IMG/VR virus record: IMGVR_UViG_3300034198_009848
Coordinates: 1 to 29,263 of that record
Strand: one strand, 5' to 3'
DNA: 29,263 nt
Origin: a virus
The notes beneath the pieces were generated by a model. It did not search any database and was not told the origin of the DNA. It saw only the letters and a list, made by a program, of their open reading frames with translations. Positions 3,403-26,086 of the stretch are shown piece after piece. The stretch's first letter is position 1. Each line of letters opens with the position of its first letter. The translations under genes and the position numbers were made by a program.

Positions 3403-3448
3403 AGATATTGGCTGAAGACGTTATCTCCTTTCACTTCAGCCAATATCT
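3403..3448 (+). other. Hairpin immediately upstream of the tRNA
   Basis: A perfect 15-bp inverted repeat (3403-3417 with 3434-3448) with a 16-nt loop lies between the stop at 3400 and the tRNA, which begins two bases later. There is no U-tract. It could be a terminator, or a processing or stability element at the 5' side of the tRNA precursor. The structure is certain on sequence; the role is inferred. Confidence 0.6.
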
Positions 3449-3449
3449 A

Positions 3450-3522
3450 ACCCCCATAGCTCAGTGGATAGAGCGAAACACTTCTAATGTTAAGGTCGCT
3501 GGTTCGAATCCAGCTGGGGGTA
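3450..3522 (+). tRNA. tRNA-Arg (anticodon UCU)
   Basis: A full cloverleaf can be drawn by hand. The acceptor stem is ACCCCCA (3450-3456) with TGGGGGT (3515-3521), the D stem GCTC/GAGC (3459-3462 with 3471-3474) and the T stem GCTGG/CCAGC (3498-3502 with 3510-3514) with loop TTCGAAT. The anticodon loop is CTTCTAA with TCT at 3483-3485, reading AGA and probably AGG. The anticodon stem has four pairs plus an A-A mismatch at its outer pair. The discriminator base is A at 3522 and CCA is not encoded. The tRNA may supplement a codon used more by the phage than by its host. Confidence 0.93.
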
Positions 3523-3523
3523 C

Positions 3524-3618
3524 AAATAGGTGAGGCAGCTGAAGGTGCAAGAAATCTAAGTCGGTTATTCGCAAAAGTACTGTACTGTCCTTCTGCCGCC
3601 TATTTTCAATAGGAGGCA
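3524..3618 (+). promoter_or_regulatory. Leader RNA with two mutually exclusive hairpins over the HicA-like gene's SD
   Basis: Proximal fold: TGCC (3594-3597) pairs GGCA (3615-3618) and CCTATT (3599-3604) pairs AATAGG (3608-3613), with a 3-nt loop. This buries the AGGAGG ribosome site of the gene starting at 3621. Distal fold: AAATAGG (3524-3530), GGCAG (3534-3538) and AAGG (3542-3545) pair CCTATTT (3599-3605), CTGCC (3593-3597) and CCTT (3589-3592), which frees the ribosome site. The same pyrimidine strand is used in both, so only one can form. This is the layout of a translational switch. The distal 5' arm starts right after the tRNA, so tRNA processing might influence it. Ligand and family are unknown. 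Confidence 0.6.
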
Positions 3619-3620
3619 CT

Positions 3621-3911
3621 ATGAAAAATAATAAACCAGGGGTATTTGCGCTTGCAATGATCTCCCCTAATAAAGAAATAAGAAGAGTTGTGCGTGAGTT
3701 AGATCGCGCAGGTTTTGAATGCACTAAAAAAGGTAACAAGCACATAAAGATTAAGAACCTAAAGACGGGGCAACAAGCAACCATTCCATCTACACCAGCT
3801 GGTAATGGTCGTCAACGGGAAAACATGTACATGACTCTACGTCAAATAGGGTTTGACGTGTCTATATTTAAGGGCACGTCTACAAAGAAAAAGGAGCAAT
3901 CAAATGGGTGA
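3621..3911 (+). CDS. HicA-like (YcfA/DUF1874-type fold) protein
   Basis: The 96-aa protein starts at ATG 3621 behind AGGAGG. Its core matches the HicA mRNA-interferase pattern: an N-terminal helix EIRRVVRELDRAGFE, a basic strand KKGNKHIKIKN carrying the His expected at the catalytic position, a TIPSTP strand, and a C-terminal helix ENMYMTLRQIGFDV. HicA toxins are small dsRBD-fold RNases normally paired with HicB. The following 60-aa protein does not look like HicB, so this copy is orphan or serves another role. It is about 25 residues longer than a minimal HicA, with N- and C-terminal extensions. Translation may be controlled by the leader RNA upstream. Confidence 0.7.
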   Translation: MKNNKPGVFALAMISPNKEIRRVVRELDRAGFECTKKGNKHIKIKNLKTGQQATIPSTPAGNGRQRENMYMTLRQIGFDVSIFKGTSTKKKEQSNG

Positions 3912-4086
3912 AAAATATCCAACAGTAGAAACAATAATTAATCACACCAATGATTTAATTGCAAGTATTTGTGATTTAATTATGGCTGAAGCGCGTAAAG
4001 ACGCTGTACCTCAGCATATGTACGTAGGTATCAGCCGTCTGCAAGAAATAATTGATCAAGTTAAATCAAATAAAATTGAGGTTTAA
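3904..4086 (+). CDS. Small helical hypothetical protein, 60 aa
   Basis: The ATG at 3904 lies eight nt after AGGAG and overlaps the HicA-like gene by eight bases, so translation is probably coupled. The 60-aa product is mainly helical (TVETIINHTNDLIASICDLI, then ISRLQEIIDQVK). It lacks the HicB RNase H-like strand pattern and any ribbon-helix-helix signature I can see, so I do not call it an antitoxin, although its position would allow that. Confidence 0.65.
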   Translation: MGEKYPTVETIINHTNDLIASICDLIMAEARKDAVPQHMYVGISRLQEIIDQVKSNKIEV

Positions 4087-4869: not shown

Positions 4870-4877
4870 CAAATAAC

Positions 4878-4909
4878 AATAGCCCCCGGCCTTATGGTCG
4901 GGGGCTATT
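4878..4909. terminator. Bidirectional terminator between convergent gene blocks
   Basis: A 14-bp stem (4878-4891 with 4896-4909, one G-T wobble) with a TTAT loop and a run of C/G pairs. The plus side runs into TTTGTTTG and the minus side into TTGTTATTTG. It sits nine bases after the last plus-strand stop and faces the minus-strand genes, so it can stop both transcripts. Confidence 0.88.
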
Positions 4910-4919
4910 TGTTTGTGTT

Positions 4920-4942
4920 GGGCCATACTTGGGCCCTTTTTT
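4920..4942 (+). terminator. Second, tandem terminator
   Basis: GGGCC (4920-4924) pairs GGCCC (4932-4936) around a 7-nt loop, followed directly by six T residues. This short hairpin backs up the larger terminator for plus-strand transcripts and touches the 3' end of the first minus-strand gene. Confidence 0.55.
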
Positions 4943-26045: not shown

Positions 26046-26086
26046 GTAGGGTGCTAAGCCAAGGAGGGGTAGACCTAGCACCCTAC
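26046..26086 (-). terminator. Intrinsic terminator after the SSB-like gene
   Basis: An 11-bp perfect stem (26046-26056 with 26076-26086) and a 19-nt loop, followed on the minus strand by ATTTTTATAT, a good U-tract. It lies 14 bases after the SSB-like stop and only 20 bases before the polA start, so polA needs read-through or its own start signal. Confidence 0.85.

Follow-up and report, generated by a model that had tools for sequence, protein, structure and literature searches.

A structured RNA element 3' of an actinophage tRNA-Arg gene, with a predicted bistable leader in one phage

In an actinophage fragment, a structured RNA element directly follows a tRNA-Arg gene and is closed by an outer stem, P1, that covaries among five phages. 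We give an even chance to the explanation that this conserved element caps the 5' end that tRNA excision leaves behind while holding the Shine-Dalgarno (SD) sequence open, and that in this phage it is bistable and plausibly serves as a translational switch. In this model the element would be part of a polycistronic transcript, and excision of the tRNA would put P1 at the very start of the mRNA that lies downstream, where it would cap the new end and hold its pyrimidine strand off the ribosome-binding site; a second hairpin, at 3403-3448, would cap the 3' end left upstream of the excised tRNA. Only in this phage would the 3' strand of P1 match the SD of the next gene nearly as well as its own partner, and because the two pairings are nearly as good as one another the leader is predicted to be bistable, so that the HicA-like gene would no longer be translated if P1 were lost or opened. 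Computed directly were both folds and the closeness of their energies, the covariation of P1, the shared core and the absence of the second fold from relatives.

Results

The window, i.e., the whole stretch of 29,263 nucleotides that was analyzed, is a 29-kb actinophage fragment encoding a WhiB protein, a B12-dependent ribonucleotide reductase, RecA and DNA polymerase A; WhiB served as an actinophage marker in earlier work (PMC6802176). The tRNA-Arg gene is flanked by small open reading frames (ORFs), with the leader of a 96-aa HicA-like gene directly 3' of it (Table 1). The three strands on which an earlier note had based a proposed switch were found exactly where that note placed them, and the structured leader abuts the tRNA 3' end, as it had described.

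Table 1. Features of the tRNA-Arg region (window coordinates).
Feature	Position	Strand	Basis or description
5' bookend hairpin, directly 5' of tRNA	3403..3448	+	15-bp perfect stem, 16-nt loop ACGTTATCTCCTTTCA; covariation, loop end kept
tRNA-Arg, anticodon TCT	3450..3523	+	ARAGORN; Rfam RF00005, 71.1 bits
Structured RNA element	3524..3605	+	P1, 3524-3530 with 3599-3605; P2, GGCAG 3534-3538 with CTGCC 3593-3597
Conserved core, match to covariance model R1	3533..3597	+	65.7 bits in the window, 80.7 in G008, 78.6 in G046
Alternative SD-hiding hairpin, exclusive with P1	3594..3618	+	Folding computation; TGCC.CCTATT, loop TTC, AATAGG.GGCA
Shine-Dalgarno AGGAGG	3611..3616	+	Sequence; 4 bases 5' of ATG 3621
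HicA-like ORF (96 aa), in this phage the first gene past the element	3621..3911	+	Pfam, PHROGs, fold match

The downstream gene was called HicA-like in the earlier note. The Pfam HicA_toxin model gives 16.8 bits, below its curated cut-off of 27, and the ORF matches phrog_2089 (E=1.4e-8), a family with no assigned function. An AlphaFold2 model (pLDDT 74) has its highest TM-scores among the matches listed with the HicA structure 6g26_E (0.44/0.63), a weak match (E=0.92), and neither Pfam nor PHROGs gives a HicB match for the ORF that follows (3904-4086). Judged from these profile and model comparisons, the HicA-like label appears fair but weak.

Relatives were collected through a DNA polymerase search that yielded 65 related loci, whose contigs were then searched with the HicA-like protein. 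Close homologs occur in the phages G039, G008 and G002 (67-78 % identity) and a more distant one in G020 (47 %); a homolog in G046 (locus L223, 64 %) was added by alignment search. A single-sequence search with the HicA-like protein found no match in viral contigs or INPHARED, and the DNA search of INPHARED matched only the tRNA body and gave no match to the element of G046. In all of these phages except G020, the HicA-like gene is preceded, a few hundred bases away, by a tRNA-Arg(TCT) gene in the same orientation. The comparison set consists of metagenomic fragments, with five leaders (window, G039, G008, G046, and G002) and three core sequences. At least one other small ORF separates the element from the HicA-like gene in G039, G008, G046, and G002, so the element goes with the tRNA rather than with HicA, contrary to the original proposal of a switch tied to the HicA-like gene.

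The 5' strand of P1 begins no more than about 2 bases after the tRNA end in all five phages. The stem reads AAATAGG/CCTATTT in the window, GAAGAGTA/TACTCTTC in G002 and, for the inner 8 bp, GAGTAGGG/CCCTACTC in G008, AAAGGAGG/CCTCCTTT in G046 and TAGCCGGG/CCCGGCTA in G039, with compensatory changes on both sides at seven of eight positions across the five phages, window included. For each of the five tRNA-Arg genes the helix at the tRNA 3' end exceeded that of shuffled sequences (p from 0 to 0.027). Within the stem, the window, G008 and G046 have a core of ~63 nt in common; between G008 and G046 the core is identical at 58 of 63 positions and the tRNAs at 62 of 72, while the P1 stems differ. 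Fold z-scores are -4.5 for G008, -4.7 for G046 and -3.8 for G002a, and weak (-1.2) for the window element alone. In G002, two stem-closed elements stand in tandem. The junction CTATTgTCAtATAGGAGG is kept in G039, whose element is no more than a plain 10-bp hairpin; this fits the expectation that the stem itself would matter. Taken together, the comparison identifies the upstream hairpin as the outer stem, P1, that closes a conserved structured RNA.

A conserved core inside a covarying outer stem is a trait of riboswitches, present here in few sequences (P1 in five phages, the core in three). The earlier note could not name a riboswitch class, and Rfam agrees: at the gathering score only the tRNA is reached in the window, and at E values up to 10 the element remains without a match in the window, G039, G008, and G002. 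The covariance model R1 was built from the window, G008 and G046, so that the high scores of these three are by construction; among 48 records it recovered its three training sequences and nothing convincing beyond them. Past the known members G008 and G046, the listed matches of a core-motif scan look like chance, and R1 accepts none of the 27 matches of a tRNA-plus-core scan besides the known members. Locus L252 (G033), at 21.7 bits with R1, was rejected since 18 core positions are absent, and L286, L299 and L305 were rejected as core relatives since their likeness to the core was forced by the search pattern. As an observation of its own, these last three loci, on other viral contigs, have two tRNAs with a conserved spacer between them, closed by ACCGATG/CGTCGGT.

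In the window, the two mutually exclusive hairpins sharing 3593-3605 that the earlier note had described were confirmed. They are formed from the strands AATAGGTGAGGCA (3525-3537), CTGCCGCCTATT (3593-3604) and AATAGGAGGCA (3608-3618). Fold A pairs 3525-3538 with 3593-3604 (AATAGG/CCTATT and GGCAG/CTGCC), and fold B pairs 3594-3604 with 3608-3618 over the AGGAGG (TGCC/GGCA and CCTATT/AATAGG around one G.A mismatch, -11.9 kcal/mol); as one strand is common to both, they cannot coexist. The partition function over 3523-3623 gives probabilities of 0.62 for fold A and 0.22 for fold B at 37 C (0.61 and 0.30 at 10 C), making the folds nearly isoenergetic. Adding 27 nt of coding sequence shifts the minimum to fold B, which then leads by 4.6 kcal/mol. 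Which fold prevails thus varies with the stretch that is folded, and the leader of this phage is predicted to be bistable conditional on that stretch.

In dinucleotide shuffles of the window sequence, the SD hairpin reached p=0.05 when the SD was kept fixed, and the shared strand reached p=0.034 in pairing with the SD and p=0.12 with the upstream arm; the work was exploratory, with several pattern scans and hairpin screens, and p-values are nominal across them. By itself, the window sequence barely lifts either helix above chance, and the support for fold A comes mainly from the relatives. A more hidden SD was computed at three of the 29 other gene starts with a recognizable SD in the window, and SD hiding at the HicA-like gene is not unusual for this sequence. 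These values bear on a simpler account, which we find possible though rather doubtful, that ATAGGAGG is an ordinary SD context with which any P1 ending in CCTATT would pair, leaving the SD hairpin, if perhaps not P1, without function. Such an account is in line with shuffle p-values of just 0.03-0.05 for the SD hairpin, with the occurrence of its motif in 51 viral contigs, close to the estimated chance number (AATAGG lies within 150 nt upstream in two of the 51), and with its absence from relatives. It would nevertheless demand a tight coincidence of ten pairs with near-equal energies, and the shared strand, though constrained by P1, matches the SD on both sides of the one mismatch.

The relatives speak against the switch as a conserved device. 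In G039, G008, G046, and G002 the probability of P1 is at least 0.98 and that of the SD-hiding hairpin at most 1e-4, compared with 0.22 in the window; a conserved SD-hiding alternative fold, another riboswitch trait, is thus absent from these four. When P1 and the SD hairpin were forced in turn and their energies compared, P1 had an advantage of 0.7 kcal/mol in the window, against 5.8-7.9 kcal/mol in the four relatives. Against the refuting condition set by the earlier note, loss of both pairings, the outcome is mixed: homologous leaders keep the pairing of one fold and lose that of the other. Strong fold B is specific to this phage among those compared, and it may be a form of control particular to this lineage or a coincidence to which the SD context contributes; that context also occurs in G039.

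The overlap between the 3' strand of P1 and the SD-pairing strand is found in all five leaders, and the P1 strand matches its own SD marginally better than the SDs of other phages (reached by 8 of 120 permutations). This overlap, a core conserved between G008 and G046 far more than their P1, and the near-isoenergetic folds of the window would also suit a ligand- or protein-sensing switch, in which the core between the P2 strands would be an aptamer or protein site whose binding locks P1 and frees the SD, the unbound RNA forming the SD hairpin and turning the next gene off. We consider such a switch unlikely, as in the relatives there is thermodynamically nothing to switch, the downstream genes differ, Rfam offers no match and the core is represented by three sequences.

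For the reading as a cap, the edges of the tRNA are informative. The hairpin 5' of the tRNA recurs in the same arrangement in G039, G046, and G020 with different stems, showing compensatory changes at 12 of 14 positions in four phages and a conserved loop end, CTCCTT(T)CA. A closing helix at the tRNA 3' edge was found for nine of 13 tRNAs of this phage group versus five of 36 of other phages (counted from the shuffle-test table). The covarying 5' hairpin and the higher frequency of 3'-edge helices in this group favor the cap. Several points count against it: the ~63-nt conserved core is more than a simple cap requires, G020 has the same tRNA with the 5' hairpin and without the 3' stem, the fold z-score of the window element alone is weak, and the three core sequences all went into R1.

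The loop of the 5' hairpin resembles the 16S rRNA 3' tail (CTCCTTTCA) and is thus anti-SD-like. This loop could also pair with the SD on the far side of the tRNA (AGGAG/CTCCT), a possibility that was set aside since its support is generic anti-SD complementarity only. A hairpin with an invariant loop ACCGCCCTCC, a varying stem of 13-14 bp and in most cases a T-rich tail, was observed in G008, G002, G015, G022, and G001 (L257, L263, L273, L278, and L280).

Discussion

If the cap explanation is correct, phages with operon-embedded tRNA genes use dedicated stems to shield both mRNA ends that excision creates; this simple rule could be checked in RNA-seq data. In the phage studied here, the stem could also link the expression of a toxin-like gene to tRNA maturation. 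A broader reading, which we hold to be quite improbable, would make the element an undescribed class of phage leader RNA (the literature was checked by keyword only): tRNA excision would place it at the mRNA 5' end, and its outer stem would report tRNA maturation, or a ligand bound by the core, and set the translation of the gene that follows, which in this phage encodes a toxin-like HicA protein.

Leaders that sequester the SD are well known from translational riboswitches, such as those of the preQ1 type, and from attenuator-like leaders. The element resembles SD-sequestering riboswitches in its two exclusive folds, one of them over the SD, and in an outer stem around a conserved core, whereas it has no Rfam class or known ligand and its second fold is not kept in relatives. 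Stem-loops at the 5' end also stabilize bacterial mRNAs, as in the ompA and aprE leaders. The position of P1 at or near an mRNA 5' end would be similar; in contrast to these leaders, the 5' end would here result from tRNA excision, and the stem holds a conserved core. Among phage RNAs, the T4 gene 32 leader pseudoknot and the gene 43 operator hairpin likewise lie beside a ribosome-binding site and control translation (PMC3014915), but they bind their own gene product, whereas the window element lies 3' of a tRNA and has no known binding protein.

A different leader of the same phage group invites comparison with the T4 pseudoknot, which as of 2010 was perhaps the sole viral RNA pseudoknot in translational autoregulation (reviewed in PMC3014915). 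At 26046-26086 on the minus strand, and in most relatives (loci L002-L055), a long hairpin whose loop complements the SD lies 5' of the DNA polymerase gene: five phages with the SD AAGGGG(G) have a CCCC(C)T loop, and a CTCC loop accompanies GGAG SDs. Loop-SD energies were better for matched than for permuted pairs (p=0.006 for 29 related leaders, p=0.0375 for 16 representatives). These data are suggestive of an SD-pairing pseudoknot in the polymerase leader, and the hairpin may be a regulatory device shared widely within this actinophage group.

Two further non-coding stretches of the window are conserved. The region 2786-2917, ~80 % identical to G039 and G008 over 2814-2917, contains a terminator-like hairpin with TTAGTTACGGGAATAACTA and ACTAAGTCTATCTGACTTAA 3' of it, and is possibly a promoter or an RNA element. 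In G039 and G008 the region 4872-4935 has 95-97 % identity, greatly exceeding the coding background, and a terminator-like inverted repeat lies within it.
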